Source of the DNA: Crambe crambe
Taxonomy: Eukaryota > Porifera > Demospongiae > Poecilosclerida > Crambeidae
Assembly: GCA_963924555.1 (NCBI GenBank)
Contig: OZ004594.1
Coordinates: 1,240,001 to 1,304,000, forward strand
Length of the DNA: 64,000 nt
Direction of reading: 5' to 3'
The notes under the pieces were generated by a model, which was not told the DNA's origin, searched no databases, and worked only from the letters and a program-made list of their open reading frames with translations. Made by a program: the position numbers and the translations under genes. Shown here in pieces: positions 26,933 through 63,382 of this stretch. The number at the start of each line of letters is the position of its first letter. Position 1 is the stretch's first letter.

Positions 26933-27083
26933 TTTTAATCATATGATTACTAGTACATTTACCCTCATTAGTTCGAGTGAAATTCACTCCTACCTACTGC
27001 GCATGTGCAGACTAACCTAGTAAGCAAATTTTGCGTATGCGGTACATTAGGGGTGTGTGCGGCCAGACCCAGACTAGGGTGGA

Positions 27084-28745
27084 ATGAGCAGAGGACGCTG
27101 CAAGAAGTTTTTCTACAATCGTACCCCGAAAGGAAAAGCTGCGTTTCTGGTTTTCGTGATAAATGTGTTGGAGACGTTTGCTTTCTACGGATCACTGAGT
27201 CTAATTCAGTCCGCCCTCTCCAGTCACTGGTCGAGAGATCTAGATCATGGCGGCGGCACTGACGATTCCAAATCTTTTACTGTCTTCATGGTTCTTCTAA
27301 ACACTGCTGGTAGGGTCCTATACCCTGTCGGTGGATTGATAGCAGATGTCTACCTAGGAAGATACAGGGTCATTCAGATTGGACTGTGGTTCTATTGGAT
27401 TGGACTTGCTATAATCCTCCTGTCTAGGGCCGTGGGGGGAAAACTTGATGACTACCCACAATTGCAAGTGGCGCTTCCTATAATTGCCATAGTGTTTGTT
27501 TTGATTGGTTCGGCAAGTGTGGAGCCCACAATCATTCCTTTTGGAATGGATCAGATACGACAGGGTGCTTCCTCTGACGAACTCAGCTCATACTTCTTTT
27601 GGTACTATTTCGGACGTAATTTTGGTTACATGCTTGTCACCCTGTTCTCGTTAGTGGTAGCCATTACGGTTCCTCCCATTGTATTGCTTGGAAGATCTGC
27701 CTATTTTATTACTGGAATAACGGCAATCATGATGGTTACAATTGCGATGGTATTACATCATTGTCTGCAGCACTGGTACTACAAAGCCAATCGAATGGAA
27801 AACCCCATAAGATCCATCAGCAATGTCCTCTTCTTTGCAGCAACCGTAAAAAGACAGCCTCCACGCTATAGGAGAAGTTTCAGATATGGAGAAGGCAAGA
27901 AGTCAAGGATGGATTTAGCTAAATTAGAATACGATGGAATTTACAGTTCTGAAAGAGTAGAGGATGTGAAAACATTTTTTCGTGTCTTATTGGTCATCAT
28001 TTCTCTTGGTGGCAATTTCATCACATATGGAGCAGTAAGTCATTAAAAAGCAATCGGTCCAACCTTTTATAATTAGCTATTCTTGTGCAGCTCAGTAATG
28101 TATATTCCGTGGAATTGAAGTTTTATCAATTACGCACCCAGCTTACTCCATCCAATCTCTTTATTTTGATTGAGAGTGGCTGTGTTTTGTTTCTTTTACC
28201 TTTCCTAAATCACTTCATCCTTCCATGCTGCATCACAGATGCGACAATGAAGAGGCGCATAGGAGCAGGCATGTTCTTCGGTTTTTTCTCTGCATTTAGT
28301 GCACTGGTGATCTATTTGAAGATTGCACAGATCCTCCCCCTGTCAGCCCTGTGGTATTTATTTCCAATCATCCTATTTGCAGTTGACGATACATTGACAC
28401 GTGTCACTGGTGAGATAATAATTATCTTTAGTGTAGTTCAAACTTAAATTTCTCATTGTAGGTCTGGAGTTCATATATGCCCAGTCTCCTAACAGCATGA
28501 AGAGTATTCTGGTTGGCTTATACTACTTTTTCTTTGGCATTTTCACTGGAATAGGCACTCTTACTTTTGATGAGATGGTCCAGAGGTATTACATTTACTA
28601 CTTTGTCCTGCCCATTTCTGCTGTCGGTTTAGTTGTCTACAGTGTGGTGGCTTATCTCTATCGTAACCGTCGGAGGCCTACTAATGATGAATCAGAACAG
28701 GACATGGAGAACAGATGTTATGCTGCTAATGTTTACTCATCATAA
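27084..28745 (+). CDS. POT/SLC15-like transporter A
   Basis: Three exons (27084-28034, 28091-28409, 28462-28745) give 517 residues with about 12 hydrophobic segments. GGLIADVYLGRYRVI is the POT/NPF family loop between membrane helices 2 and 3. IGSASVEPTIIPFGMDQI and DELSSYFFWYYFGRNFG match the FGADQ and FxWFY family signatures. Helix 1 reads VLETFAFYG, where classical proton-coupled members have ExxERFxYYG, so two charged coupling residues are altered. Substrate (peptide, histidine, nitrate or other) cannot be told from sequence. It has the same exon structure as copies B and C. An NRF1-like CTGCGCATGTGCAG lies about 75 bp upstream. Confidence 0.85.
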
Positions 28746-28959
28746 ATTATTATAAATATCACATACAGTAATTATCTATATAGCTGATGGTTAAATGAAG
28801 CCCACTGCATGTTGTATAGGGAATTTCCACTCTATTAAAGCTGTAAGATTCACTATCCAAAGAAGGCTGGGTGGAGTACTTTTTTACTATAGCTGATTGC
28901 AGCACAATAACTTAATTGGTATGCTGAATCAGCAAAAATGAAAAGAATAATAGCAGACC

Positions 28960-29409
28960 ATGAAATTCTGTGTGCTCATTTTCCTCCTTTGCTTGCATTC
29001 AATAACATCTAAATCTCCCAGACTCAGTGAGTTATTTATCCCCTTCTTTATGTATTAGCTCAGCCTTAAATATGTCATTACCCCATTTAGCTAGCATAGC
29101 TAAATGGGGTTGTAAAGACATTTTCTTTAGCTTGCAAGTCCCAGCATGATGTGTATAAACTATATTATAGATCACTATAATGTGAATGCTGACCAGTATA
29201 TTCAGCATGATCAAAGACTTCCTTATTCTGAATACATGTATGACAGTGAGGATGAGAGTGAAGATCTAGAGAGTGAGGAAGAAGGAGATGGAGACATATT
29301 GTCGAGCTCTGCTGTCATAGATCTACATGAACCTGAAATGGAATGGAATGAAGGCAGGGGGAACTGGACTGCACCCAATCAAGATTTCGACTTTGAAACT
29401 CAATTTTAA
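28960..29409 (+). CDS. In-frame chimeric gene: esterase signal-peptide exon fused to the formin acidic tail
   Basis: Exon 1 (28960-29026) encodes a signal peptide ([17 protein letters not shown] then KSPRL) and ends at GTGAGT. Exon 2 (29171-29409) begins after TATTATAG and reads HYNVNADQ, then passes without a frame change into the duplicated formin tail (YIQHDQRLPYSEYMYDSE, ending DFDFETQF). The total is 101 residues with a normal stop. The junction at 29196/29197 is the tandem-duplication breakpoint. The product would be a small secreted or membrane-released, very acidic, tyrosine-containing peptide. It may be a new gene or simply a duplication relic. It sits downstream of transporter A in the same position as the intact esterase downstream of transporter B, so it probably keeps the esterase promoter. 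Confidence 0.6.
29081..29109. repeat. Perfect 12 bp-stem palindrome, copy 1
   Basis: CCCCATTTAGCT, a 5-base loop, then AGCTAAATGGGG. It lies in the intron of the chimeric gene and is duplicated with the unit at 31566-31594. Related arms, inverted, flank a small exon at 34934-35055, so it belongs to a dispersed palindromic or MITE-like element. Confidence 0.8.
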
Positions 29410-29558
29410 TCATAATTATGGTTAATATTTACTAGTACATTTACCATCATTAGAAATTCACTCCTACCTACTGCGCATGTGCAGACTAACCTAGTAAGCA
29501 TGCGGTTAGGAACTCTACATTAGGGGTGTGTGTGTGGCCAGACCCAGACTAGGGTGGA

Positions 29559-31210
29559 ATGAGCGGAGGACGCTGCAAGAAGTTTTTCTACAATCGTACC
29601 CCGAAAGGAAAAGCTGCGTTTCTGGTTTTCGTGATAAATGTGTTGGAGACGTTTGCTTTCTACGGATCACTGAGTCTAATTCAGTCCGCTCTTTCCAGTC
29701 ACTGGTCGAGAGATCATGGCGGCGGCACTGACGATTCCAAGTCTTTTACTGTCTTCATGGTTCTTCTAAACACTGCTGGTAGGGTCCTATACCCTGTCGG
29801 TGGATTGATAGCAGATGTCTACCTAGGAAGATACAGGGTCATTCAGATTGGACTGTGGTTCTATTGGATTGGACTTGCTATAATCCTCCTGTCTAGGGCC
29901 GTGGGGGGAAAACTTGATGACTACCCACAATTGCAAGTGGCGCTTCCTATAATTGCCATAGTGTTTGTTTTGATTGGTTCGGCAAGTGTGGAGCCCACAA
30001 TCATTCCTTTTGGAATGGACCAGATACGACAGGGTGCTTCCTCTGACGAACTCAGCTCATACTTCTTTTGGTACTATTTCGGACGTAATTTTGGTTACAT
30101 GCTTGTCACCCTGTTCTCGTTAGTGGTAGCCATTAAGGTTCCTCCCATTGTATTGCTTGGAAGATCTGCCTATTTTATTACTGGAATAGTGGCGATCATG
30201 ATGGTTACAATTGCGATGGTATTACATCATTGTCTGCAGCACTGGTACTACAAAGCCAATCGAATGGAAAACCCCATAAGATCCATCAGCAATGTCCTCT
30301 TCTTTGCAGCAACCGTAAAAAGACAGCCTCCACGCTATAGGAGAAGTTTCAGATATGGAGAAGGCAAGAAGTCAAGGATGGATTTAGCTAAATTAGAATA
30401 CGATGGAATTTACAGTTCTGAAAAAGTAGAGGATGTGAAAACATTTTTTCGTGTCTTATTGGTCATCATTTCTCTTGGTGGTGATTTCATCACATATGGA
30501 GCAGTAAGTCATTAAAAAGCAATCGGTCCAACCTTTTATAATTAGCTATTCTTGTGCAGCTCAGTAATGTATATTCCGTGGAATTGAAGTTTCATCAATT
30601 ACGCACCCAGCTTACTCCATCCAATCTCTTTGTTTTGATTGAGAGTGGTTGTGTTTTGCTTCTTTTACCTTTCCTAAATCACTTCATCCTTCCATGCTGC
30701 ATCACAGATGCGACCATGAAGAGGCGCATAGGAGCAGGCATGTTCTTCGGTTTTTTCTCTGCATTTAGTGCACTGGTGATCCGCTTGAAGATTACACAGA
30801 TCCTCCCCCTGTCAGCCCTGTGGTATTTATTTCCAATCATCCTATTTGCAGTTGACGATACATTGACACGTGTCACTGGTGAGATAATATCTTTAGTGTA
30901 GTTCAAACTTAAATTTCTCATTGTAGGTCTGGAGTTCATATATGCCCAATCTCCTAACAGCATGAAGAGTATTCTGGTCGGCTTATACTACTTTTTCTTT
31001 GGCATTTTCACTGGAATAGGCACTCTTACTTTTGATGAGATGGTCCAGAAGTATTACATTTACTACTTTGTCCTGCCCATTTCTGCTGTCGGTTTAGTTG
31101 TCTACAGTGTGGTGGCTTATCTCTATCGTAACCGTCGGAGGCCTACTAATGATGAATCAGAACAGGACATGGAGAACAGATGTTATGCTGCTAATGTTTA
31201 CTCATCATAA
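29559..31210 (+). CDS. POT/SLC15-like transporter B
   Basis: Recent tandem copy of transporter A with exons 29559-30503, 30560-30878 and 30927-31210 (515 residues). Differences from A are few, for example loss of two residues after SSHWSRD, and T to K in VAIxVPPIV. All splice sites are kept and no stop or frameshift is present, so it appears functional. The shared family motifs and the altered helix-1 motif are the same as in A. Confidence 0.85.
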
Positions 31211-31434
31211 ATTATTATAAATATCACATACAGTAATGAATTTTATTTATCTATATAGCTGATGGTTAAATGAAGCCCACTGCATGTTGTATAGGGAATT
31301 TCCACTCTATTAAAGCTGTAAGATTCACTATCCAAAGAAGGCTGGGTAGAGTACTTTTTTACTATAGCTGATTGCAGCACAATAACTTAATTGGTATGCT
31401 GAATCAGCAAAAATGAAAAGAACAATAGCAGACC

Positions 31435-33247
31435 ATGAAATTCTGTGTGCTCGTTTTCCTCCTTTGCTTGCATTCAATAACATCTAAATCTCCCAGACTC
31501 GGTGAGTTATTTATCCCCTTCTTTATTTCTAATTATGTATTAGCTCAGCCTTAAATATGTCATTACCCCATTTAGCTAGCATAGCTAAATGGGGTTGTAA
31601 AGACATTTTCTTTAGCTTACAAGTCCCAGCATGATGTGTATAAACTATATTATAGATCACTATAATGTGAATGCTGACCAGATCTCGATATCTGGACTGT
31701 CTTCAGGCGCTTTCTTCTCAGTGCAATTTCACGTGGCCTTCTCAAGTACCATCATAGGAGCAGGAATTGTGGCAGGAGGTTAGAGTTACCTAAATGACTA
31801 ATCCAGGGCCTGAGATTGCAGAGATGAAGGCTGAGGGTTTGTAACATAACACTCACTCATTTTGCTCATGAGTTTGAGCTGGTTCAGTATGCAAGCTAGG
31901 CCACTCCTTTATATTCTTCTGCTTTCTTTATCAGGACCATATTGGTGTGCCAATGATAATCTGGAAATAGCCTTGTCATCGTGCATGCTCTATCCAGAAA
32001 GTATATCAGTTCAAGAGCTTATCAATATAACCTATGCAACTGCTCTATCACTGACTATTGACAAACCATCTAACCTGAGGAACGATAAGGTATATCTCTT
32101 TTCTGGGACCAAAGACACCGTTGTAGTACCAGGTGAATGGTTATTAATTTGTAAGCATTATTAATGTTAACTAAACTTGTGTTATCTGTGTTATGTAATG
32201 TTAACTGTAAGTGTTATATTAATGTTAACTAGTATTTGCCGTATTCTTTAATAACAGGTGTTGTTCATAAGCTTGCTGAATACTACTCTCACTTCACACC
32301 CAATGGAGTCACGACTCAATTTCATATTCCAGCTGAGCATTCAATGGTTATCTCCTTAGGTTAATAATAGAACCTTCAGCTGTTATGTAGCTATTATACA
32401 GGTGACTGATGATTATGGGAATAATTGTGGTATCTTGGCATCTCCTTTTATCAACAACTGTGGCTACCAAACAGCTGATTACATCTTGCAGCACATTTAT
32501 GGAGACATAGAGAAGGCCAACAGCAGTCACGCAGAGAAAGAACATGTATGACTAAAGGAACCATGACAGTATTATATGGGAATTAATTCTACAATGGGCT
32601 AGGGCATGCTTGCTTTTGTGGGGAAGACCCTGTCTTTATCATTACTAATAATGCAATACACATTGTACTGTGCAGCTACTAGAGTTTGACCAATCTGAAT
32701 TCTTTGAGGATGTGCCTAAGCTTGTTAGTATGGACAGTACAGGCTATGTGTATGTTCCCAAAGATTGTCAAGATGGCCAGAAGAAATGTCGCCTACACAT
32801 AGCTCTTCATGGCTGCATGCAGGGACGGTAATGCCATGCTACTACCATACATAGCTGTGTATGAAGGTTGTATATAGAACATTATGTGATTGGTCTATAG
32901 AGTGTCTGTTTCCACTGACTTTGCTTGGCATGCTGGGTACAATGGACTGGCTGAGGTGAACAACATCATTGTGTTGTATCCACAAGTAGTGAAGTCACCT
33001 GTCACCCCATACAACCCTAACGGATGCTGGGACTGGTGAGAGCTATTCCCTCTCCTGCTTTTCTCATGTCTCTCTCTTATATTTTAATTTTACAGGTGGG
33101 GATATTCTGGACCATCTTATGGTACGGGTATTAAAGCAGCTCATATTAGTTATTTTAACTTTATGCAATATTTTGAACCCTGCAGCATCAAAAATAGGTC
33201 CTCAAATGGCTGGAGTCAAACTAATGCTGAATAGGATTGTTGATTAA
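31435..33247 (+). CDS. Secreted PHB-depolymerase-type esterase 1
   Basis: Nine exons (31435-31501, 31656-31778, 31935-32132, 32258-32346, 32402-32545, 32676-32827, 32901-33035, 33096-33121, 33186-33247) join in phase to 331 residues. A signal peptide ([17 protein letters not shown]) is followed by [20 protein letters not shown], whose GLSSG is the GxSxG nucleophile elbow. [10 protein letters not shown] supplies the likely catalytic Asp and EHSMVTDDYG the likely His. [23 protein letters not shown] and [11 protein letters not shown] are typical of bacterial extracellular poly(3-hydroxybutyrate) depolymerases and related esterases. Inferred role: secreted hydrolysis of polyesters or short hydroxyacid oligomers. 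Introns show it is a true nuclear gene. The family is mainly bacterial, so ancient transfer is possible. Confidence 0.85.
31566..31594. repeat. Perfect 12 bp-stem palindrome, copy 2
   Basis: Same sequence as at 29081-29109, in intron 1 of esterase 1. It was carried along by the tandem duplication. Confidence 0.8.
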
Positions 33248-33262
33248 TAAATTGATCTCTAA

Positions 33263-33273
33263 TGCGCATGCGT
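33263..33273. promoter_or_regulatory. NRF1-like palindrome upstream of esterase 2
   Basis: TGCGCATGCGT about 130 bp upstream of the ATG at 33395. Part of the recurring promoter motif of this window. Confidence 0.4.
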
Positions 33274-33394
33274 GCTTAGTTAATGCGGCAACTTTGCGGA
33301 ACCTCTGCTGTTTCATTCCGTCCCTTTCTTGGGAATAGTGGAGCCCTACAATTCCAGTGAACAAGCTATGAGTTAAGTTAGCTATCTACTAACC

Positions 33395-35136
33395 ATGAGA
33401 TGCGAGATAATCTCTGTTTTCCTGACTTTCTTTCATCTGATTGAATCTAAATCTCCCAGGCTAGGTGTGCCAGTTATCATTACTGCAAATTGCTAGGTAA
33501 CCAGAATCTATGTATAGGACACTATAATGTGAATGCTGAGCAGATCTCAGTGTCTGGGTTCTCATCGGGAGCCTTCTTCTCAGTGCAATTTCATGTGGCC
33601 TTCTCGAGCACCATCATGGGAGCAGGAATAGTGGCAGGAGGTCTGGATCCAAAATACAATAGAACCTCCAAATAACGGACACACTTGGGACCCAGAATTT
33701 TGTCCTAAGTAGAGAGGTTGTCCTCTTTTTTGGAGTTTGTGTAGAGTGTAGCTATAATACTGTAGATATTTATAAAAGGGTGAGTAGGATAAACTTGATT
33801 TTTTCTTTCTTCAATAGGACCATATTGGTGTGCCAAAGATAGCATTGAAGTTTTATTGTCATGTACAGTAAATCCAGAGAGCATATCAGTCAACAAGCTG
33901 ATAACTAAAACTTACGCTAATGCTTTATCCCTGGCAATTGATGACCCATCTAACCTTAGAGACGACAAAGTCTTCCTCTTCTCTGGGAAAAAAGACAGTA
34001 TAGTAGCACCAGGTGAAGTTGCATAATTATAATTATCTCTGGAGACTCATAGCTAATTATTGAGTGTCCAATATTTATGCTTATAGCTACCCATTCAGAT
34101 CCATTTTGTAAGATAAGCCTGCATGGGCACGAGGTTATCATGCTAGCCTAGCTTAGCTAGCTAGCTAACTTTGTACAATTTATTAGGTGTTGTTCACAAG
34201 ACTGCTGAATACTACACTCACTTCATACCCAATGGAGTTGCAACACAATTTGATATTCCAGTTGAACATTCAATGGTAAAATCTTACTTCCCTAAAGGTT
34301 AAAAATATTATGGTCAATATATACACCCTTCATCAGGTGACTGATGATTATGGAAATGATTGTGGTGTCTTAGCATTTCCTTTTATTAACAACTGTGACT
34401 ACCAAACAGCATATTACATCTTGCAGCATATCTATGGAGACATAGAGAAGGCCAACACCAGTCATGCAAGGAAAGAACATGTATGATCATGATCACATGA
34501 AGCATGGTGATGTAGTCTTAATCTAGTCAATACACCAAGCCACCATAGCTAGCTACTTCTCTAAAATCACCACATTCTCAAACTGTATAGCTGTTGGAAT
34601 TTGACCAATCTGAATTCTTCGGTGATGCTCCTCAGCACGTTAGTATGGACACAACCGGCTATATTTATGTGCCCAAAGATTGTCAAGATGGCAAGGAAGA
34701 ATGTCGTCTACACTTAGCATTTCATGGGTGCTTGCAGGGACGGTACATGCAAGCTATTCTGTGCATGGTTGTTACATAAACTATCATCCATGTATAGGGT
34801 ACATGTTTCCACTGACTTTGCTTGGCATGCCGAGTACAATGGACTGGCTGAGGTGAACAACATCATTGTATTGTACCCACAAGCGGTGGATTCACTCATT
34901 CTCCTCAACCCTTTGGGGTGCTGGGACCAGTAAGCTAAAGAAAATGTCTTTTACAACCCCATTTATCTATGTTGCATCACCTTCTATAGCTATGGATATA
35001 CAGGGACATCTTATGGTAAGAATTTTTGATATATTTAAGGCTGAGCTAATACATACTTAGATATTTGTATCTAGTGACAAAGAGTGGTCTTCAAATGGCT
35101 GGAGTCAAACTAATGCTTAACAAGATTGTCAGTTAA
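33395..35136 (+). CDS. Secreted PHB-depolymerase-type esterase 2
   Basis: Nine exons with the same phases as esterase 1 (33395-33464, 33518-33640, 33818-34012, 34187-34275, 34337-34480, 34591-34742, 34798-34929, 34990-35015, 35075-35136) give 330 residues. It has a signal peptide (MRCEIISVFLTFFHLIES), nucleophile motif VSGFSSGAFF, Asp in SGKKDSIV and His in VEHSMVTDDYG. Divergence from copy 1 is clear at protein level, so this is an older duplicate. Two changes fall in a normally conserved patch: [11 protein letters not shown] has become NPLGCWDHYGY, which may alter substrate contact. The coding frame is intact. Confidence 0.83.
33660..33740. repeat. MITE-like repeat in an esterase 2 intron
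   Basis: Contains AGAACCTCCAAATAACGGAC and GTTGTCCTCTTTTTTGGAG, matching the repeat in the DPH7 intron at 6089-6228. Ends are partly inverted. Confidence 0.5.
34934..35057. repeat. Inverted relatives of the palindromic element around a 26 bp exon
   Basis: GCTAAAGAAAATGTCTTTTACAACCCCATTTA on one side and ATATTTAAGGCTGAGCTAATACATA on the other are reverse complements of sequences that surround the palindrome at 29081-29109. They lie in the two introns that flank exon 8 of esterase 2. Confidence 0.55.
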
Positions 35137-35208
35137 TTATCGATATCATAGATTGCACGTGACAATGGTAAATTACATGGGGGTGTGGTTGACTAGCGGT
35201 CGATCACC

Positions 35209-37086
35209 ATGGAAGGTTCTATACAAGAAGGGTCAGTGCACAACAACGATGCTCTATATACAAGTCGTTCTAGCGTCTTGGGAAGCCCTGTTGAATCAGC
35301 ACCTCTACTTGCTTCCTGCCATGGCGATAAAAGGAGGCATTCACTCTCTGACAACTCCTCCATCGACTCCAGCTCAAGGACATTCGAGTTCGATCTCGAC
35401 AGGGAGAAAAAACGTTGCAAGAAGATGTTCTACAATCGCATTCCAAAAGGGAAAGCTGCATTTCTGGTCTTTGTAATAAATGTCCTAGAAACGATTGCTT
35501 TCTATGGATCATTGAGTATAGTTCAATTTGCCCTTCTGCCACATTTCTCTAGTGATGATCTTAATGGCCAAAAGTCTTTCCTTGTTTATACGATTCTCCT
35601 AAACACTGCTGGTAGGGTCCTATACCCTGTCGGTGGATTGATAGCAGATGTCTACCTGGGAAGATACAGAGTCATTCAGATTGGACTGTGGTTCTATTGG
35701 ATTGGACTTGCTATATTACTAATGTTTTTAGCTCTCCATGATCAAATTCAATCTTCTCAGGGCCACCTAAATGTAAAACTGATAATGCCAATAATCGCCG
35801 CAATCTTCATTGTCATTGGTTCAGCAAGCGTGGAGCCTACCATTATAGCTTTTGGAATGGACCAGATACAACAGGGTGCTTCTTCTGATGAACTCAGCTC
35901 TTATTTTTCGTGGTTTTATTTTGGACGCAACTTTGGTTATGTTCTCATCAATCTTTGCTCATTAGCCTTCGTGGTGTCTTCTGTCTATGTGCAATACTTA
36001 TCACCTGGTACCTTTAAGTTTTGCATTATAGGTGCTATTGCAATTGTGGTAGTCACAATAGCCATGTTATTGCACTACTGTCTGCAGCACTGGTACTACA
36101 AAGCTCGTCGGATGAATAATCCTGTAAAATCCATTTGCAACGTGCTCTTCTTTGCAGCAACTGTAAAAAGACAGCCTCCACGCTACAGGAAAAGTTTCAG
36201 ATATGGAGAAGGCAAGAAGTCAAGGATGGATTTAGCTAAGATAGAATATGATGGGATCTACAGTTCAGAAGAAGTCGAAGATGTAAAAACTTTTTTCCGT
36301 GTGCTATTAGTCATCATTGCTCTAGGTGGTTATTTCATCACTTATGGAGCAGTAAGTTATAACTCACAAAGAAGTTTAATAATAATCATTGTATTTATTG
36401 CAGCTGTCCAACACTTTTTCCGTACTGTTTCAGAAGAATAGTACAGTTATTACCTATCGCAGTGAAGCATCAAGCTTGTACTTTCTCATAGAAAGTGGAA
36501 TGGTTATACTCTTCATTCCCTTCTTGAATCACTTCATACTTCCATGCTACCCAGGAGCAAGTATGAAAAGACGCATCGGAGTGGGCGTTTTCTTTAACTT
36601 TCTGTGTGCCTTGATTGGAATGGTGATCCAGCTAGAATTATACAGAATCACCAAACAGACAATATGGCTCTGGCTTATCATTCCCATTATCTTTCTTGCA
36701 ATTGGAGATATGTTGATTTTTGTCACTGGTAAGAAGATGTTTTATAACTATTGTTTCTATTAATCTTATTTCGCACATTAACAGGTCTAGAGTTCATCTA
36801 TGCACAGTCTCCGAACAGCATGAAAAGTGTTCTCACTGGTTTATTCTACTTTGTCTATGGAGTTTTCTTTGGTGTAGGCACACTAATCTTCCATGTGTTT
36901 GACGACAGTGATCATGATATATATATATTTTACACTGTTTTGGCTATATCCGGAGTTGGGTTTATCGTCTATGGACTAGTGGCCTACTTCTACCGCAATC
37001 GTCAGAGACCTACCAACGATGAATCGGAGCAGGACTTAGTACACAGATCTTATGCAGCTAGTGTGTACTTATCAGGAAATCATTAA
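35209..37086 (+). CDS. POT/SLC15-like transporter C
   Basis: Three exons (35209-36351, 36404-36728, 36785-37086) give 589 residues. It is clearly related to A and B, with the same loop GGLIADVYLGRYRVI and VINVLETIAFYGSLS in helix 1. It has a much longer cytoplasmic N-terminus of about 75 residues. That extension contains ESAPLLA, which fits the [DE]xxxLL lysosome/endosome sorting signal seen in SLC15A4-type transporters, and a serine-rich run. Endolysosomal location is therefore an inference. A and B lack this extension as annotated, so either they differ in location or their upstream exons have been missed. Confidence 0.85.
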
Positions 37087-37300
37087 TACTTAATATTAAT
37101 GTTTAGTCTTTTATTTCTTGTTATAGATCAGTATACATGAACTTTAGTATTGCATCATTACCATTCTTGATACATGATTATGAATCTTTTTATGATTACT
37201 AATAAGGAGGAAAGTCTACAAGCATATGTAGCCCTAGTCCCAAAGGTGTGGCTGAAGATATTTGAATACAGCTCTTAGCTATTATTAGTGCTGGAACAGA

Positions 37301-39640
37301 ATGTCTAGCTCTGGCAATGTCATGAATGGTGAGTTAGTACAATTAATACCTATAGCTAATAATACTAATGTCTATTAATTGTTCATTTAATCCTTGGATC
37401 ATTCACTATACAGAGCCGCCGGAAGCAATTTTGAGGTGGTCAGGCTGAATATGCGCGCGTAAGCGCGCGGGAAATTTTTACTGACCACGCCCACTTTATA
37501 ACCACACCCACCTATATTAACGGTTGAACACGTGGGCAATTTTGTAATGTTGACGACCATTACCAATGTTGTTCGATCGACGAGTGGTCCGGTTTTGGCC
37601 TGACCAGCCGGAGCGGTTCCGGCGGCCCTGCTATAACTGCTCAATTCTTAACCAAATTTCAAATTTCAAAAACCAGCTCATGATCAGCTCTCTGCTGGTA
37701 ATTTAAATGTGAAAGAATTGAGCAGAAATGATCAAGATAACACATGTTAGTTCAATTAAGTCCATTGAAACAGATGTCAGCAGCTCTACTAATGGAGTGC
37801 CTCATAGCCATCGTGGCAGCGTCAATAGTAGCTATGGTGATAACTCAGGGCTGTGGAGGATGAATTCAAAGGAGTTTAGACGTGAAATGATCAAGTACAG
37901 GCTCAAGTATCTATTTGCACAGCCGTGTTCACTATTCTGTAAGACCAGCATCCAACGCATTCCCTCTGGTAAGAAAGTCTATCTCTTTTTGGTTTTGCTG
38001 GGGCTGGAGCAGCTGGCCTACAGTGTGTCCAGCGACATCATCCTTAATAAGCTCTTCCTATCTCGAATTGGTATCAAAAATATTCCAATATTAAGGAGTA
38101 TCATTGTCTACATCGCTGGCAATCTGCCATTCCCAATCGTTGGTTGGATTGCTGATGCTTGTGTTGGACAGTATTGGATGATGCATTTCAGCATGTGGAT
38201 TTTATGGCTTGGTTATGCTGCCATGGCATTTTTGTGCAGCATCAGTAAGTTCGCGTCATGGAATAGCTATCTCTTCCCATTCTGCTTCCTTGCTGCCAGC
38301 TTTGGTTCTGCAGGGTTTCAAGCAAATGCTATTCCACTAGGTGCTGATGTGATCAACTACAAGACATCGGAAGAATTGAGCTCCTACTTTCATTATTATT
38401 ACTGGATGAGAAACTTAGCCATCACCGTTTACCTTGTTTGCACTGCATGTGCTGACTTCCAAACAAAGCGTAATACCGTTATTGATATGATTCCAGTGCT
38501 ATGCATATCTCTTTCTCTCGTTTTGAATGGCTGTTTCAGGAATTGGTTTGATAGGAACCGGGAGAGGAAAAATCCATACTGGAAAGTTATTCGAGTATTA
38601 TTTTTGGCCATGGTGATAAAGAGACCAATCCATCGCAGTGCTTTCAGCTTCTCTGGTGCGTCTCCTCCAAGTCGCATCAATCTGGCGAAAAAAGTCCACG
38701 GAGGGAAGTTTAGCAACGAGGAAGTGGAAGATGTAAAGACATTTCTCCGTCTCTTGCTGGTAGCGCTTTCCGTTTTGAGCAGTCTGGTTTTGTTCATGGG
38801 AGTAAGTGGTTTTCTTTTGATATTAAGATTCTATGATTTAATAACTAAATCTCACATATGTAGTTATTCCAAGTGACAAATCTCCAACTTCATGACATGC
38901 ATCCAGTTCTTTTCGGCCTCAACTCCACCAATGACTTACTCAACAACTGCATATTTTCTGACAAGTTCACCTTTACCTTCAATTCTGTGACAATCCTGTT
39001 CATCATTCCCCTGTTGGTCCATATCATTTATCCTTTCTTACGAGAGTATGTGCCAAACATGCTGAAGAGGATCGGTTTGGGGTTCTTCCTGGCAAGTGTT
39101 TCCGTCCTTATGTCTCTGTTTCTCAGTGCAGAGGGTACGAAGAGAGACCACTCCAGTAGCTGCATGTTCACCGCTAATTTCAGCAGTTGGGAGGAGAGAA
39201 ACAGTTACAGTAATAATCCAGCACCTGACTATCTGATTATGATACCTCACTTTTTCTATACAATGGCTGAGATCTTCATCAATGTTACCAGTAAGTCTTA
39301 TGCAGAATCAGATAGCTAATTAGCTATAGATTATTATATATTTTCCTTTTATGTAGGTTTGGAATTTTTTTACGCTCAGTCTCCTCACAAGATGCGTGGG
39401 ATGATGATAGGACTGTTTTTCTTTGTGTGGGGTGTGGGTTCAGCACTTGCCGAAACACTGATCCTCGTATTCTCTAAAACCTCCATTGGTCCGTCCCTAA
39501 CCTGTGACTTCTGGTACTATTTCATGTATGTGGTCTACGCTGTGTTGGCGTTTGTTGTTTACGTGGTGCTGGCCTGTTGGTACAAGAACAGACAGCGAGG
39601 AGAAACTGACAGTGTACAATTCTATAGACATATTTCCTAA
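37301..39640 (+). CDS. POT/SLC15-like transporter D
   Basis: Four exons (37301-37328, 37726-38801, 38864-39290, 39357-39640) give 604 residues. A 28 bp first exon (MSSSGNVMN) is joined in phase 1 to the long second exon. D and E form a second subgroup. Helix 1 reads VLLGLEQLAYSVSSD, the loop reads FPIVGWIADACVGQYW and the C-terminal hairpin begins SLEFFYAQSPHKMRGMMIG, a stretch also typical of plant NPF and animal SLC15 proteins. The first intron holds a 220 bp transposon-like element with target-site duplication. Substrate unknown. Confidence 0.82.
37411..37630. mobile_element. 220 bp MITE with 14 bp terminal inverted repeats
   Basis: The left end CAGAGCCGCCGGAA and right end TTCCGGCGGCCCTG match at 13 of 14 positions when inverted. 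The element is flanked on both sides by CTATA (37406-37410 and 37631-37635), a 5 bp target-site duplication. It is GC-rich compared with its surroundings and has internal inverted pieces (GGTCAGGC and GCCTGACC). No coding capacity, so non-autonomous. The CAGRG ends recall hAT-type elements, but those usually leave 8 bp duplications, so the superfamily is uncertain. Confidence 0.75.
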
Positions 39641-48897: not shown

Positions 48898-53721
<4,824 letters not shown>

Positions 53722-54104: not shown

Positions 54105-57100
54105 ATGGCTGGTGCTCAAAGGTGAGTTCGTAGCTCGGCCCGTGAGATGTTCTAATCAGATACGCTAGTAGTTAGCCAGTCTCGTGAGCTAATACAGGTT
54201 TTAGGGGGTCTAGCATGCAATAGGTCAGGAAAGTTGATCATCAGTGTCAATTTTTGTGAGGGAGGAGGGAGGTCATCCTTAATTGAGTCGAGCAAGTTTT
54301 GTGGGTGTGGCTTCAAAGATTGCCTCATTGAATGGGGGTACCGGGTATTGATGAGTGCTCGCAAAATTTAAGACCATTGACAGTATATTTTGCTCGCTTG
54401 AATTTATCTTGCACATGCACAAATTCTACTGGTCAACCAAAAACCTCTGTACTGACTTTGTTCTAGAAATCCATGAAAATCGTGGATAGCATGCGCAGAA
54501 CATGTAAGTACGTCATCAAATTTGAGTGCACGTGTAGTCTTTACTTAGCGAGCAGGTAATTGCTGCCTCTTTATCTAGCTGCATGCAATTGATAGCAATC
54601 GTCCCTTCATGAAGGAGCTTACTGCTTCTATTTGTATGATTTTTAGAATTGAATAGCCAAGCCTACGTCCACCTTCTTGAATAGCTTCAAGAAATCTTGA
54701 GCCATCCTTTTGCTTGCACTATTTCGACTGAGTCATGACGTATTGTGACGCGATTTTCTATGCGCGGCGCACACTGCTGCTTACTCAGCAAAACAAAGTC
54801 AGTATAGGAGTTTGACCAGACTCTCTCTTCTGCGTGTGAGAGTCTGGCCCGCGCGAGACTATTCTCTCCCCATTATAAATCCCTTGTAGTATAGTCTAGC
54901 ATAGCCGACCCCTTTTATTGGTGGGTGGGGGAAGGGAAAGAGCTTGGTGTCATTATACAGCATTTTGTGCATGGTGCATGTTATAGTTATACCAGTTGCA
55001 CGCCCAATCAGATTGCAGTATAGCCTTGTACCCAGGCCACCACTTTTTTTGTGGGGCGGTGGAAAAGTGAGAGGGCCTGGTGTCAATTATTGTACCTAGA
55101 CTCTAAAATGATGCAGAGGCGGGAAATAGAGCACTGTTTGTGCATGCGCCAAAAATTTCAAAAAAAATTTCACGCAAAATTCCTGCCATTACACTTTATG
55201 ATGGTGTGTGATGTCACAGCATGTAACTACGTGTATGAGCATGCGCTATAAGATACCAAGAAAACCATTGCAATGAAATTCTCTGGAGAAGAGAAGACAA
55301 GACTGGCACTTTTAAAATTATTCATAGTGGCAAGAATTTCTTTATCCATAAACTGCTCTCCCTTAAATCCAGAGGAGATGATCACAGCCTTAGCTCTCCA
55401 CTATTCCCCAATGAACAAACGAATGGAGAGAATTACTTGCTGCTGCTCCTTGTTCAGTACTAGGTGGGGTTGTCCCAGCTGAAATAGGGCGAAAACAAAC
55501 ACACCGTCCGCAATGAAGAACTGGTGAACTAGAGCTGGTCTGCTGCAGTGCTATTGCATCATGCATCAGCACGTTCTATCAGCTTAGCTTTAGACCTGAT
55601 CCACATCAGCAAAATAAACTGAGACAGTACTATCCCTCTCAAGTCAAGCTTATGGTTGAAAACAAGTAGCAATGACTCTTCTTGTCTAACCAGTTGGTAG
55701 CAGCACTTCTTTCATTAACAGCTTGCAAAGAACGCTTCTCAGAGTAAGGTGAGTTGAATCTAGCGCAGAAAGAGCAAAAGCGACAGAACAGTCTCTATCT
55801 AGAGCTGCTGACTCAGATCTCATCATGTAATGTTTATTACGATATGTGTAAGGGACGTGCACGTGGGAGCATGTGTATGCAATTAATGCAGGCCCTCTCA
55901 CTTTTCCACCGTCCTGTGAAAAAAGCAGGGCCTGGTATGAGACTATATAGTTGCAGTATTGCATTCTTTGCACAGTAAAAAGTGGTTCAGCAAGAATTCT
56001 CTAGAATGGCTGAGTGTGAGATAAGCATTCAGGGAGCTTGATTTGCCACAAGTCAGACACAAGTCACCATCTTAACTACAATACGCTAAGGAGCACAAGT
56101 TCACAAATTACTCCAGCCTTAAGTGCACCATGCACTGTATTTCATCACCAACCTTAAGTGTGCCATGCACTGTATTTCATCACCAGCCTTTGGCAACATG
56201 AATGGTCCCATGGCCTCCAAGTCCTATTTTAGCATTGTACACGTACATACATATGTACATATGCACTGTGTGACCCTGGGATTAAATAGTCTGGCGTAGT
56301 CTACCCTTATTGGTAGGCAGGGGAAGGGAAAAGGTCTGAGTTTTAACTATTGCTGTCTATAATAATTACAGTTATAATATCTTTGTGGAAACCCCTACAA
56401 ATCCAACCTCCATCACTCTTGAGGTTAAGGCTTCTGATACAATTAAGACCATCAAGTCTAAGCTTCAAGATGAAGAAGGTATTCCTTCTAATGAACAAAG
56501 ACTCTTCTTTAATGGGAAGCAACTTGAAGATGGTCGTACATTATCAGAATATAACATCCAGAAGGAATCCACACTTTATTTGCACACTAGCTTGATAATA
56601 TTTGTGAAGACGCTTACCGTGAAAACCATCATCCTTAAAGTTGAGACTTCTGATACTATTGAGAGTGTTAAGTCAAAGATCCAGGACAAGGAAGGTATCC
56701 CTCCTCACCAACAAATACTCTTCTTTGCTGGAAAGCAACTTGAAGATGGCTTTACATTATCAGACTATAACATTCAGAAGGAGTCCACCCTTCATCTTGT
56801 GCAAAATGTAATATTTGTGAAGACACTTACTGGCAAAACCATCACCTTTGAGTTTGAAGCTTCTGATACAATTGAGAGTGTTAAGTCAAAGATCCAGGAC
56901 AAGGAAGGTATTCCTCCTGACCAACAGAGACTCTTCTTTGGTGGGAGGCAACTTAAAGATGACCTTACATTATCAGACTATAACATTCAGAAGGAGTCTA
57001 CCCTTCATCTTGTGCAAAATGTAATATTTGTTAAGACACTTACTGGCAAACTCATCACCTTTGAGTTTGAAGCTTCTGATACAATTGAGAGTATTAAGTC

Positions 57101-60100
57101 AAAGATCCAGGATAAGGAAGGTATTCCTCCTGACCAACAGAGACTCTTCTTTGCTGAGAGTCAACTTGAAGATGGCCGTACATTATCAGACTATAACATT
57201 CAGAATAAGTCCATCCTTCATCTTGTATTGCATCTGGAAAGTGTAATATTTGTGAAGACGCTTTCTGGCTCAATTACCATGACCCTTGAGTTTGAAGCTT
57301 CTGATACAATTGAGAGTGTTAAGTCAAAGATCCAGGATAAGGAAGGGATTTCTCCTGACCAACAGAGACTCTTCTTTGCTGGAAAGAAACTTGAAGATGG
57401 CTGTACATTATCAGACTATAACATTCAGAAGGAGTCCACCCTTTATATGCACACTTGGAAAATTTTTGTGAAGACCCTTACTGGCAAAACCATCACCCTT
57501 GAATTTGAAGCTTCTGATACAATTGAGAATATCAAGTCAAAGATCTATGACAAGGAAGGTATTCCTCCTGACCAACAGAGACTCATCTTCGATGGGAAGC
57601 AACTTGAAGATGGCCGTACATCATCATCCTATAACATTCAGAAGGAATCCACCCTTCATATCGTTTTGCGTTTACGATCTGACATGCGAATTTTTATAAA
57701 GATGCCTACTGGCAAAATCATCACCCTTGAGGTTGTGGCTTCTGATACAATTGAGAATGTTAAGTCAAAGATCCAGGATAAGGAAGGTATTCCTCCTGAC
57801 CAACAGACACTCATCTTTGCTGGGTGGCAACTAGAAGAAGATGACCTTATATTATCAGACTATAACATTCAGAACGAGTCCACCCTTCATCTCGTATTGC
57901 ATATACGTTCTAGCATACAAATGTTTGTGAAGATGCCTACTGGCAAAACCATCACCATCGAGGTTGAAGCTTCTGATACAATTAAGGATGTCAAGTCAAA
58001 GATCCAGGACAAGGAAGGTATTCCTTCTGACCAGCAAAGACTCTTCTTTAATGGGAGGCAACTTGAATATGGCCTTACATTATCAAAATATAACATTCAG
58101 AAGGAGTCCACCCTTCATTTAGTATTACGTCCTGGCATGCAAATTTCTGTGAAGACGCTTACTGGCAAAACCATCACACTTGAGGCTGAGGCTTCTGATA
58201 CAGTGGAGAATATTAAGTCAAAGATCCAGGACAAGGAAGGTATTCCTCCTGACCAACAGAGACTCATTTTTGCTGGGAGGCAACTTGAAGATGATCATAC
58301 ATTATCACATTATGACATCCAGATGAAGCCTATCCTTCAACTTATATTGAATATGGATAATGTCATGCAAATTTTTGTAGAGACTTTTACAGGCAAAACC
58401 ATCTCTCTGTTGGTGGAGGCATTCGATACAATTGAGAATGTCAAGTCTAAGATCCAAGACAGGGAAGGTATTCCTTCTGATCAACAGAGACTCACATATG
58501 CTGGGAAACAACTAGAAGATGGTTATAGTTTATCAGATTACAAAATCCAGAATGACTGCACTCTTCATCTTGAGTCATATCTGCATAGTAGCATGCAAAT
58601 TGTAGTGAAGCCTCTTCATGACAAAACCATTACCCTTGATGTTAAGACTTCTGATACAATCAAGGACATCAAATCTAAGCTACTGGACAGGGAAGGTTTT
58701 CCTCCTGAGAATCAGATACTCGTGTTTGCTGGAAAGCAACTTGAAGATGGTTGTACATTATCAGATTACAACATCCAAAAGGAATCCACCCTTCATGTTT
58801 TATTTCGCATCAAAAGTGTATTTGTGAGGATGCTTTCAGGCAGAACCATCACTCTTCAGTTCGAACGATATAGATGTACAATTGAGAATATCAAGTCAAA
58901 GATTCGGGGCAAGGTAGGGATTCCTATTGACCAACAGAGACTCATCGTTGCTGGTAAGCTACTGGAAGATGGCCACAGTATTCATGAATACTTAATATAT
59001 ACCGATTGTACCATAAATCTTTATCATGGAGTCATGCCTATCCTCATAAAGACCCATGATGGCAAAACCATCACCCTTGAGGTAGAAGCATATGACACCA
59101 TCAGGACTGTGAAGTCAAAGATTCATGACAAGGAAGGAATACCATCCGATCAACAACGTCTCATCTTTACTGGGAAGAAACTCAAGGACTACCAAACATT
59201 GTCACATTGTAATATTCATGATGAGTCCACACTTCATCTTTTTCATGGTGTCATGCATCTCTTTGTGAAGACCCTTACAGGCAAAACCATCGAGCTTGAA
59301 GTCAAGGTTTCCGATACTACTGAAATTATTAAGTCCAAGATCCAGGATAAGGAAGGAATCCCACCTGATCAGCAAGTACTCGCCTTCGATGGGAAGCAAC
59401 TTATGGATGGATATTCTTTATCGGATTACACTATTCATGACAATGACCTGCTTCATCTAGTGTTACAGATATTTGTGAAGACCAAGAATGAAGAAACCAT
59501 AACCCTCCTTGTAAAGCCAACTGATACCATCAAAAGTATCAAGTCCAGTATTTATTGTAAATCAAAATTTCAAATCTCACCACAACGACAGCAACTTTTT
59601 TTTGCTACAAAGGAACTTTTTGAAGATGGCCTCACTGTATTTGACTATATCATCAAGAATAACTCAACTCTTCATTTATACGAATGTGAGTATTGTTGAT
59701 TTATTCTATAGGGGGTTGTTAATTAAGAACCGTGCATTCATTCCTTCAGCTGGCGATTTAGTATCATATGTGTCATCGCTCCCTGCTTCTGTCTGCCCCT
59801 TCCTAAATCAGCAGCTGGACTGGGACAATCAAATGGACAGGGACCTACATTTCGTAGCAGATGATTACATGTTGGACTGGGAGAAGAAACTCTCAAACCA
59901 ATTGGGAATAACCCTTAGTGATATATACAATATCAAAACAGAACACCATAAGCCTAATCTCATAAGGTAAGTAAGATTCCATTGCAAGTGTTTACTTGTT
60001 ATAACTATCAAGGTATGAATAATGACTGTTATTTATCTCCACAGGAGAGCAGTCTTGAAGAAGTGGAAGAAAAAGCAAGGTGTCCATGCCACCTATAATA

Positions 60101-63100
60101 ACTTGCTGCGCCAATGCTGTCTTGGAGGGGATGCACATACTGCTGCAGCCATTTGTGAAGTCCTAAGGAAAGAGAGAGGTATACCTATACTAATCATACT
60201 ACATGTCATTTCAGTGACACACAAAATTTCATGCCAACTGGCTAGCTATAGTAAAAATGATGGAGATGATATTGGAAGGGGGGCTTTAATCAACCAGGGG
60301 TGACCTAATTTTGTACCTCCAAGCACCACTTTGACTAGCACTTATTACATACAGTGAAATCTATTTAGTTAGTCCATGCATCATTAAATATCACTCTGTC
60401 ATGTCCCAATAGAACCTATTCTGTCTTTAAAGGGAAAGGCCACTTGTTCCTGGCCCAGGAGTGGTCACATTAAGCAGGATTCTACTGTTTAACCTGTCTA
60501 ATGCTCTTGAGATTTAAGCCCATTTATTTTAAACAGATGTAGATGAAGATGCTGAGGAAGAAACAGCAAATGCAGAAGACATAGAAGATGCTAATGCTGA
60601 TAAAGAAGCAACAACTGCTGATGAAGAAACAGTTGCAGACGACTTCATCAAGGTTATTGAGGAAGCTGCTGCTAATGATAAAGAGATTGAAAGGAAAATG
60701 GCTCACTCCACCTTTGTTGGTCCTCCAGGCTCTGGCAAGAGTTCATTCATGGATCGTCTACTAGGTAGGCAGAGGAAGCAATTCTCCCCTTCCACCGGAG
60801 TGTGTGGTACCATCATTATGGTCGACATTGACGTAACTAAATCGTGCCCTCTCCAGGCGGTTAACATACTAGAGTCTGATGTTTGGGAAGAAGCCGAATG
60901 CAACGAATCATTTGTGGGGCAAATGGATGTTAGAAATGAACTAGCCCCAAAAAGACCTGGGTTTGAGGATAGGAACGAACCAGAAAGTACTGAATTATAT
61001 ATTGGACGTGAGACACACTCTGAGCATATTGAAGAATTCGAAGAAGTTATAGAAAGTGTTATACCTGACATGCCAGTCCAGTCAGCAGAAGAAGCTGCCA
61101 GTCTAACTGCAGCAACAACCACTCCCCCTATTGAAGAGACGACTACCAGTCTCCCAATCAAATCAAAAATTATCACATTGAAGTTTGACGATAACACCCG
61201 TTCAGTGATTAAGAAATATGGCTTCAAGAAATTCAAGAAGTACCTCAAGAAAACCTTTACCCTGTACCTCAGGGACACCGGAGGCCAGGTGGAGTTCCAA
61301 GAAATTATAGGTCTTCTCGTATTTGGCCCATCTATCATCTTCTTTCTTTTCAATATCAATCTTGGATTTCAGGAAAAGTTCAGCATCGAATACAGGGTTA
61401 GTGCTAGTGAGTCTACTAACCACTACACCTCTTCTATCACTACAGAAGAAGCCCTACTCCAGTGCTTGTCTACTGTGTATGCTATGGATACATCGAGTGA
61501 AAGCCGTGTCAAGACACACAAGCCTCTTGTATTTATTGTTGGCACTCACATCGATGAGCTTCAAGCCAGAATCAAAGATAAGGATCTGGTTGATGCCGAA
61601 ATTGCCAAGCTGAATCGACACTTGGATTCATTGCTTATCAATAATGGATTTCGCCACCTTGTTGAGTATTATGATCCAGATGAAGGAAAGGTCATGTTTA
61701 CTATCAATAACATGTCTGATAGTGACAACGATTTCACATTCGTTCGAAGACGAGTCGAAAATTTGATCAAAGGTCGTGATGAGTTCACCATCCAATACCC
61801 ACTCAAGTACCTGTTATTCTGCCTCGACTTGCAATTCAGAAAAGAATGCATATTGACTCTCAAGGAATGCAAGGCCATGGCAGCAGTGTATGGTATCACA
61901 GGAGACCAAGTAATTGACCTCCTACACTTCCTTCACTTCAGAATTGGTGTCATCCGATACTTTGATGTTGAAGGTTTGAGACACATTATCATTAAAGAGC
62001 CTCAAGTTCTCTTCAATAAAGTTACCAATCTCATCATCAAAACCTTCTCTTCTGCATCCCTCAGAGATACAGAAAGAAATGATTTCAAGAAGAGGGGCAT
62101 TTTTTCAGCATCTTCCTTCAAAAGCATTGTTGAAACTGACGACAAGATTACCTCAAGTGAGTTTCTACAGCTTTTGGTTCACCTCCGCATTATTGCTCCA
62201 TTCCCCACACCAGAAGGTCAGGAAAAGAAATACTTCATGCCGTGCGTTCTTAATCACGTTCCAGAATCCAATTTAATTCTTCACACAGATATCTTACCTC
62301 TGGCTATCACATTTGAACGTAGACATTGTCCTAAAGGTGTGTTTGGCGTCCTGGTTACTCACATCATGACCCCGGAATCAGATCTCAAAACCTATTATCA
62401 AGCTGAATTTCAACTTATGGAAGAGAGGATATTCAAAGATCAAGTGTCTTTTAATGTCATATCCCGTGAAATTGAAGAAGATGAAATATCTATTAAAGTC
62501 AATCCTTCACATCTTGAGATCAATTTCTTTCCTTACTCACAAGGTGAAGATCGTGAAGTATCAATTGAAGAAGTTTGTAGCACCATTCGTGAGATTGTGG
62601 AGAAGTCAATTGTTAAGTCTTTCAGGGATCTACACTATAATGAAGAGAGAGTCAAACCAATAATGTGCCTCAGATGTGAATTCTGCAATGAACTCCATCA
62701 AGTGAAAAAAGCAAAAAGAATTACTTGCAAAAAAACACGTAAAACTAGTCGTATTCCACCACGAGGAAGATATTGGTATGACAAAGGTCGGTCAATAATA
62801 ATGATCATGGTAGCTAGCTAATATGGCTACTGGAGCCCTAGCCTCATACCCAGGCCCTCTTTTTGCAGAGTCAAAAAAAAGAAGAAGCGGGCCTTGCCAC
62901 CTGGGTACAAAGCTACTTAGCTACCATTTCATGTTCATGCTGTCATGTGTATTTTCTGTCCCTTCAGGTTCAGCTGATAGTCTCCATGAAGGAAGTGCTA
63001 GAGTTGCCAGTATAGATGAAGAAAGGACAGAACTAGGTAATGATTTACATGATTGTGGTATGATAATCTTTCATTTGAGTTTGGTCTATTTTCAGTCAAA

Positions 63101-63382
63101 GATGATCATCAAGAAGTTTTCCATGAAGTGAAGTCACTGGCTGTCAAGTGGGAAAGGCTTGCTGGCAGACTGCATCTTAGTACTGACTGCATTGCAATCA
63201 TCAGAGAAAATAATTGTGGAAATGTGGTGAAGTGTCTCTCTTTGGCATTGGAAGAATGGCTGGACTTGAATTACAACTATGTGCGATATGGGAAGCCAAG
63301 TTGGAAGATGCTTGCTGAATCAGTGCGAGGTCTTAACAATAGCCTCTATGAAAAAATTGTCGAGAAGTTTAACATTCACTAG
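54105..63382 (+). CDS. Poly-ubiquitin-like, Death, ROCO-type GTPase, Death protein
   Basis: The coding exons 56372-59685, 59750-59966, 60045-60178, 60537-62786, 62968-63036 and 63096-63382 join in phase. With a proposed 17 bp first exon at 54105-54121 (MAGAQ, GTGAGT donor, phase 2) the total is 6,288 bp or 2,095 residues. The first 1,100 residues are 15 diverged ubiquitin-like repeats of 70-77 residues (for example [33 protein letters not shown]). None keeps a C-terminal Gly-Gly, so it cannot be processed to free ubiquitin. A Death domain follows ([20 protein letters not shown] ... [11 protein letters not shown]), then an acidic linker. The GTPase has P-loop [19 protein letters not shown] (G3) and VGTHIDEL (G4). 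A COR-like helical region follows, with a Cys-rich patch (CLRCEFCNE). The end is a second Death domain ([15 protein letters not shown] ... [12 protein letters not shown]). Function is inferred to be signalling on a ubiquitin-like scaffold. I know of no named protein with this order. Confidence 0.8.
54893..55096. repeat. MITE-like repeat fragments
   Basis: GGGGGAAGGGAAAGAGCTTGGTGTCATTAT and, about 130 bp later, GTACCCAGGCCACCACTTTT with GTGAGAGGGCCTGGTGTCAA. The second piece has inverted ends (CCCAGGCC, GGCCTGG). Relatives occur at 55880-55960, 56284-56350 and 62838-62912. Confidence 0.55.
55880..55960. repeat. MITE-like repeat, inverted-end copy
   Basis: GGCCCTCTCACTTTTCCACC followed by GCAGGGCCTGGTATGAGACT. 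The outer pieces are inverted copies of each other and match the 55019-55096 element. Confidence 0.55.
56117..56186. repeat. 35 bp tandem repeat
   Basis: Two adjacent copies beginning CCTTAAGTGCACCATGCACT, differing by one or two bases. Each contains the palindromic TGCACCATGCA-type core. Confidence 0.8.
56372..59685 (+). other. Array of 15 diverged ubiquitin-like repeats (one exon)
   Basis: Repeat starts can be followed by the (M/V/I)xIFVKT-like opening and the DTIxxxKSKIxDKEG core. Lys27, Lys29 and Lys33 equivalents are kept in nearly all repeats, and position 28 is Ser rather than Ala. Ile44 of the hydrophobic patch is Phe in many of the first eight repeats (RLFF) and Ile in several later ones (RLIF). 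Lys48 is kept in some and replaced by Arg, Ser or Trp in others. Repeats 12-15 are the most diverged. The linkers between repeats (LVQN, LVLHLES, LYHGV) replace the RLRGG tail. Confidence 0.9.
60354..60500. repeat. MITE-like repeat in an intron of the ubiquitin-repeat gene
   Basis: Begins TACAGTGAAATCTATTTAGT and ends AGCAGGATTCTACTGTTTAA, giving approximate inverted ends. It recalls the elements at 6089 and 33660. Confidence 0.4.
62838..62912. repeat. MITE-like repeat in the penultimate-exon intron
   Basis: CATACCCAGGCCCTC at the left and GGGCCTTGCCACCTGGGTAC at the right are partly inverted and match the family at 55019-55096. It lies in intron 62787-62967. Confidence 0.55.

Follow-up and report, generated by a model that had tools for sequence, protein, structure and literature searches.

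A predicted Crambe crambe protein combining 15 ubiquitin-like repeats, Death domains and a ROC-COR GTPase, and its two tandem copies

RESULTS

The stretch of DNA analyzed (the window) comprises 64,000 nucleotides (nt) of the sponge Crambe crambe (GenBank assembly GCA_963924555.1, contig OZ004594.1, here C17:1240001-1304000), and the gene of interest, named A1, occupies window positions 54105..63382 on the forward strand. The predicted A1 protein was confirmed to combine 15 ubiquitin-like (UBL) repeats, a Death domain (DD1), a second, putative one (DD2), and a ROC-COR GTPase. The gene was rebuilt exon by exon, giving seven exons and six introns (2250, 64, 78, 358, 181, and 59 nt, from 5' to 3'), all GT..AG and in phase, and a 2,095-residue product with a single terminal stop. 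This bears out the initial annotation, which had proposed phase-consistent joins and one protein of that length.

Exon 1 (54105..54121) carries the ATG, encodes MAGAQ plus 2 nt, and ends at a GT donor; each of the two tandem paralogs starts with this exon and its donor (M[AD]GAQ; C17:1307658 and C17:1320878). The entire UBL array lies in exon 2 (56372..59685, acceptor TTACAG, donor GTGAGT), inside an open frame of 1,119 codons (56340-59699). The repeats themselves span 56376..59684 (residues 8-1110). A 64-nt intron (59686..59749), the possible gene break named in the initial annotation, separates the array from DD1, which is encoded by exons 3 (59750..59966) and 4 (60045..60178), as assigned from the rebuilt model, Pfam, and paralog comparison. 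Exon 5 (60537..62786) encodes an acidic linker and the ROC-COR GTPase, as supported by the rebuilt model, Pfam, the genome scan, and relatives, with COR (COR-A and COR-B) at 61796..62785. Exon 6 (62968..63036, rebuilt model) is a linker, and exon 7 (63096..63382) encodes DD2 and the stop, as assigned from the rebuilt model, Pfam, and sister-gene alignment. An alternative donor at 62810 was ruled out, as its frame is broken by five stops. In 200 mononucleotide shuffles the longest frame reached 177 codons for the UBL segment (1,119 observed) and 211 codons for the ROC exon (762 observed); these long open frames are not due to chance.

Pfam ubiquitin (PF00240) matched 15 stretches of A1 (1,128 bits) and a local profile likewise counted 15 repeats, in agreement with the number first proposed. 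The DD1 region scored 30.6 bits with Pfam Death (PF00531) in A1 and 36.1 bits in the copy A3, above the cut-off of 22.6 bits. The COR-A match of A1 was 34.2-34.4 bits as protein (cut-off, 35.3) and 37.9 bits, above the cut-off, in the genome scan. The COR family was matched at E ≤ 0.01 by 8/8 aligned ROC-COR members, and the Roc family by 7/8. A1 also has the COR fold. The GTPase motifs examined, namely G1, the P loop (GPPGSGKS, 60719..60742), G3 or switch II (DTGGQ, 61274..61288), and G4 (GTHID, 61541..61555), were present in all three gene models, and their cores (G..GSGK.S, D.GGQ, and GTH.D) were invariant in eight aligned ROC-COR sequences, including the query. The proposed ROCO-type GTPase stands for COR and for the three motifs; the Roc match itself, at 18.1 bits, was under the Pfam cut-off of 27.

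A Pfam scan of A1 pieces matched no protein kinase family, no OAS domain, and neither NACHT nor leucine-rich repeats (LRRs), so that A1 does not classify as an NLR. A single-sequence search of the PDB with the ROC-COR region gave no match at E ≤ 0.1. A profile search matching NLRP and LRR chains was discarded because the profile included the NACHT-LRR columns of P0002, an ENA protein with NACHT, LRR, and ROC-COR. The trimmed alignment produced weak matches alone (E ≥ 0.15), LRRK2 Roc included.

Two more copies were found downstream of A1 on the same strand, giving three tandem full-length open copies in all. A2 (C17:1307658-1316868) encodes 2,188 residues with 18 UBLs, which run directly into the acidic linker and ROC-COR within one frame of 2,093 codons. 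A3 (C17:1320878-1333658) encodes 2,529 residues with 21 UBLs, DD1, ROC-COR, and DD2, joined as in A1. The junction between the UBL array and DD1 was found at nine loci, where a GT donor of identical phase follows the last UBL and an AG/CTGG acceptor lies 61-589 nt farther on. The junction motif was sought as exonic residues only, in any frame, across six regions, and membership of the UBL frame was judged by eye. It occurred at 34 places. Ten were in the UBL reading frame, nine of them with both donor and acceptor, and the tenth (C17:2526396) was an inner repeat with neither; the acceptor was present at none of the other 24. The corresponding intron of A3 (about C17:1329670-1330200) measures 589 nt versus 64 in A1. 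Part of it is bounded by inverted ends and may be a small transposable insertion.

Relatives of the individual modules were sought across the 143-Mb assembly (119 contigs). ROC-COR relatives matched at 66 places among the best 64 of 466 candidates scored, COR-A exceeded its cut-off in 149 of the 150 matches listed (339 candidates), and all Death matches listed from the best 150 of 965 candidates scored were over cut-off. The ROCO genes form a very large expansion with tandem clusters on contigs C1, C3, C5, C8, C11, and others, and several of these genes have a Death match nearby on the same strand (as with C8:8143196 and C8:8141645, each within a 1,041-residue frame). Two sister genes were found. 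In the first (C6:4522168, region C6:4521704-4527971), whose ROC-COR is 86% identical, COR is followed by a Death domain, and a frame of ankyrin repeats lies some 2 kb upstream. The second (C17:1600777) has a ROC-COR 73% identical and a C-terminal Death domain. The C-terminal domains of these sisters scored 30.4 and 31.9 bits with Pfam Death and were 30 and 26% identical to DD2 of A1.

The UBL-DD1 unit recurs at three loci at C17:1.81-1.82 Mb on the minus strand (C17:1807202-1808044, 1815636-1816430, and 1819782-1820396), where it continues into a ZU5-like exon in place of ROC-COR. The ZU5 label was deduced from a score of 21.9 bits (cut-off, 21.0) in one piece of the two scanned; a PDB search gave no relative of the exon, with two chance-level rows. 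The tripeptide HFC lies near the end of the exon in all three copies, and ZU5/FIIND-type proteins have an HFS autoproteolysis site at the corresponding place. Two pieces scanned with Pfam for a later Death domain at these loci matched no family, so that UPA and Death at these places are no more than likenesses. Since UBL-DD1 is found on two chassis and ROC-COR seems to occur with other N termini, both halves appear to shuffle. Diverged poly-UBL frames also occur at C20:2088607-2091552 (982 codons) and C15:7144680-7146809 (710 codons), with no DD1 match within the stretches examined around them.

The 54 repeats of A1, A2, and A3 were compared with the host's own ubiquitin over 70 core positions and were 49-90% identical (means of 74, 84, and 80%, respectively). 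None ends in GG, the end at which polyubiquitin precursors are processed, consistent with the earlier proposal of noncleavable units. Conservation over the 54 repeats, as identity to the host's ubiquitin and for classes of surface and core positions that were assigned rather than computed, was 0.90 for buried or core positions, 0.77 for other surface, and 0.70 for the Leu8-Ile44-His68-Val70 patch. This patch was exact in 1/15 repeats of A1, 7/18 of A2, and 8/21 of A3, and positions 8, 44, and 70 were all hydrophobic in 6/15, 17/18, and 18/21, respectively; position 44 was Phe in 20/54. Residue 2 (the column before Ile3) was Gln in 7/54. Lys29 was kept in 52/54 repeats and Lys48 in 43/54 (0.67 in A1). 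Repeats 7 and 8, the pair tested, aligned end to end with linear di-ubiquitin chains, including a chain of 2zvn. Two UBAN-like (CC2-LZ) matches in the genome, at 34.1 bits (with one internal stop) and 26.7 bits, were both below the cut-off of 35.3, and suggest that ubiquitin-chain readers may exist in this genome.

Ratios of nonsynonymous to synonymous divergence (dN/dS) among the copies were 0.18-0.25 for ROC-COR and 0.08-0.20 for DD2, and both are under purifying selection. The first UBL gave 0.21-0.59 and the last 0.53 (A1-A3). Within the arrays, mean dN over mean dS was 0.32 for A1 (95/105 pairs), 0.60 for A2 (147/153), and 0.49 for A3 (192/210). All three copies share an orthologous first repeat, and A1 and A3 an orthologous last one, while the inner repeats of A2 and A3 include many recent duplicates, some of them identical. 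The array is therefore deduced to be labile in repeat number yet held to its fold.

Candidates in the protein searches were 0.55-1.75 times the query length, from a collection in which gene models of kin may be missing. Of 7,088 candidates for the ROC region, two ROC-COR proteins matched, and the precomputed Pfam list of neither includes a ubiquitin family. For the UBL array, the best 7,850 of 7,984 candidates were scored, and the named proteins among the 120 matches listed were largely polyubiquitins. Taken with DD1, these searches returned no relative with the A1 architecture, and no description of the order poly-UBL, Death, ROCO, Death was found in the parts of the literature covered. The initial annotation knew of no described protein with this order, and that held within the searches made; A1 is a ROCO-Death protein for whose N-terminal arm no description was found.

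Elsewhere in the window, SH2 and SH3 exons of a neighboring adaptor gene lie just upstream of A1 (53077-53721), and tandem POT/PTR2 transporter-like frames occupy 27078-38876, with two of the three scanned passing the Pfam cut-off.

DISCUSSION

An unusual signaling or immune scaffold is suggested because two neighboring copies share most of the A1 design. We tentatively hypothesize, at somewhat less than even confidence, that A1 is a one-gene sensor-switch-output protein. The three roles are likely those given by position, with the UBL array as sensor, ROC-COR as switch, and the Death domains as output. The 15 repeats would form a covalent, uncleavable arm resembling a linear ubiquitin chain, in the place that ankyrin repeats or LRRs seem to occupy in ROC-COR relatives, and this arm would most likely be a multivalent binder of ubiquitin-handling proteins, host or microbial. 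Two precedents favor such an arm, a linear hexa-ubiquitin resistant to ubiquitination (PMC7348737) and OASL (PMC6019448), both described below. ROC-COR would act as a GTP-dependent dimerizing switch, and the flanking Death domains would relay the signal to Death-domain adaptors. We infer the binding partners, the GTP gating, the Death-adaptor output, and the immune role.

Several observations weigh against this proposal. The DD2 match was under the Death cut-off in A1 (16.0 bits versus 22.6) and likewise in A2 (16.1 bits), and its structure model, while showing six helices, was poor (pLDDT, 52.7), its quality precluding a fold search. Of the two proposed Death domains, DD1 scores above the cut-off; DD2 is sub-threshold but aligns with the C-terminal domains of the sister genes. 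No DD1 was found in A2, from which it was apparently lost through an in-frame deletion whose joint is visible in the sequence, no DD1 relative was found in the protein collection at E ≤ 0.1 among 98 candidates, and DD1 diverges fast (dN/dS of 0.80, A1-A3). In the repeat alignments, the Ile44 patch shows no preferential conservation, least of all in A1 (0.53 versus 0.71 for other surface), and the links between repeats are 4-11 steps versus 10 in true linear di-ubiquitin. The arm thus resembles a linear chain in sequence and in the alignment of repeats 7 and 8, but its links differ and its classical reader surface is under no special constraint. Finally, an exchangeable arm leans on gene neighborhood at the C6 sister locus because the ankyrin and ROC-COR frames there are not in one model.

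It was also considered whether the locus might hold two neighboring genes, one for the poly-UBL array that would end at 59699 and one for Death-ROCO-Death that would start near 59750. The UBL frame, if the donor is read through, does stop within 14 bases. However, the gap is just 64 nt, the junction is repeated at nine loci, and the paralog A2 has UBLs and ROC-COR in a single frame. This comparative evidence strongly favors a single predicted gene, as the initial annotation had it, and two genes are deemed very improbable. A pseudogene or assembly artefact is thought extremely improbable. Tandem repeats are easily misassembled, and two other UBL regions contain assembly gaps (200 N each), but the A1-A3 stretch is free of N, the three models have no frame break, and the purifying selection on ROC and DD2 argues against a pseudogene.

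The initial annotation had proposed a narrower function, a standing linear-ubiquitin mimic with which a Death platform would recruit NEMO-, TAB-, or UBA-type readers independently of an E1-E2-E3 cascade. This was considered unlikely. It is consistent with the alignment of the repeat pair to linear di-ubiquitin, with the hydrophobic 8/44/70 positions in most repeats of A2 (17/18) and A3 (18/21), and with the two UBAN-like matches. It is also consistent with the report that a linear hexa-ubiquitin resistant to ubiquitination raises NF-kB signaling via Ile44 (PMC7348737). The lysine-keeping form of that hexa-ubiquitin did not show this effect (PMC7348737); the A1-A3 repeats mostly keep their lysines, which counts against a direct parallel, for the broader proposal as well. 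Furthermore, the patch is exact in one and hydrophobic in six of the 15 A1 repeats and is conserved less than other surface, residue 2 is Gln in 7/54 repeats, and both UBAN matches fall below cut-off; docking of NEMO- or TAB-like readers is therefore weakly supported at best.

A built-in degron that keeps the Death-ROCO part scarce until needed is a further alternative. In the ubiquitin-fusion-degradation pathway, an N-terminal uncleavable ubiquitin moiety serves as a degron, and A1 matches this in the N-terminal position of the array, the lack of GG, and the frequency of Lys29 (52/54) and Lys48 (43/54). Since such a degron leaves the 15-21 units and the repeat turnover unexplained, the lysines may just have been retained from a ubiquitin ancestry, and Lys48 falls to 0.67 in A1, this alternative was judged distinctly unlikely.

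Among known systems, the closest are ROCO proteins, in which COR dimerizes and Roc binds GTP (PMC6337361). The DAPK1 group, described as exclusively metazoan, resembles A1 in having ROC-COR with Death and no LRR (PMC6337361); unlike in that group, no N-terminal kinase was detected in A1, where ROC comes after a UBL array and a Death domain. Brown-algal LRR-ROC-COR proteins, candidate immune receptors, resemble the family of A1 in forming a large set of ROCO proteins with shuffling N-terminal repeats, but these repeats are LRRs on separate exons (PMC11378527) and the UBL array of A1 lies within one exon. The sea-anemone protein NG3, a novel immune candidate from an animal, likewise contains both Roc/COR and Death, but has a kinase, SH3, and TIR and lacks a UBL array (PMC5094078). 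Lineage-specific Death-domain architectures, as in A1, are known from sponge NLRs and Death/TRADD-N proteins; the legend of a Dysidea figure in this set names UBQ and COR domains, and the text covered does not give the poly-UBL-Death-ROCO-Death order (PMC12909245, PMC8195603).

For the UBL arm, OASL is comparable in that tandem UBLs, said to mimic polyubiquitin, are fused to another protein, in that case an immune one; it has two at the C terminus versus 15 at the N terminus of A1, in which no OAS domain was found (PMC6019448). The polyubiquitin genes UBB and UBC share head-to-tail units with A1-A3, but the A1-A3 units are diverged from host ubiquitin to the extent given above, lack GG in all 54 cases, and are fused to other domains. 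Two ENA sequences, P0009 (1,825 residues) and P0013 (1,533 residues), are giant diverged UBL arrays like that of A1; GG unit ends were not seen in P0009 and number about five in P0013, and, unlike A1, their precomputed Pfam lists have no Death or COR family.

The preferred sensor-switch-output reading has a bolder extension, which is put forward as a speculation and regarded as rather unlikely. The array would be a ubiquitin chain encoded in the genome, independent of E1, E2, and E3 and resistant to most deubiquitinases, that an animal Death-domain GTPase family has recruited as its exchangeable arm for bait or sensing. It would evolve by repeat gain and loss, and would act as a multivalent bait by which microbial or host ubiquitin-handling proteins trigger a GTP-gated Death signal. 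Enzymes normally assemble ubiquitin chains after translation, and other enzymes erase them; 15-21 uncleavable units written into the gene of a Death-domain GTPase would bypass this control. The tandem copies with 15, 18, and 21 units would form a natural series for the effects of chain length and patch quality on signaling. Since the array is placed where other ROCO proteins have presumed ligand-binding repeats, the possible immune role is directly testable.

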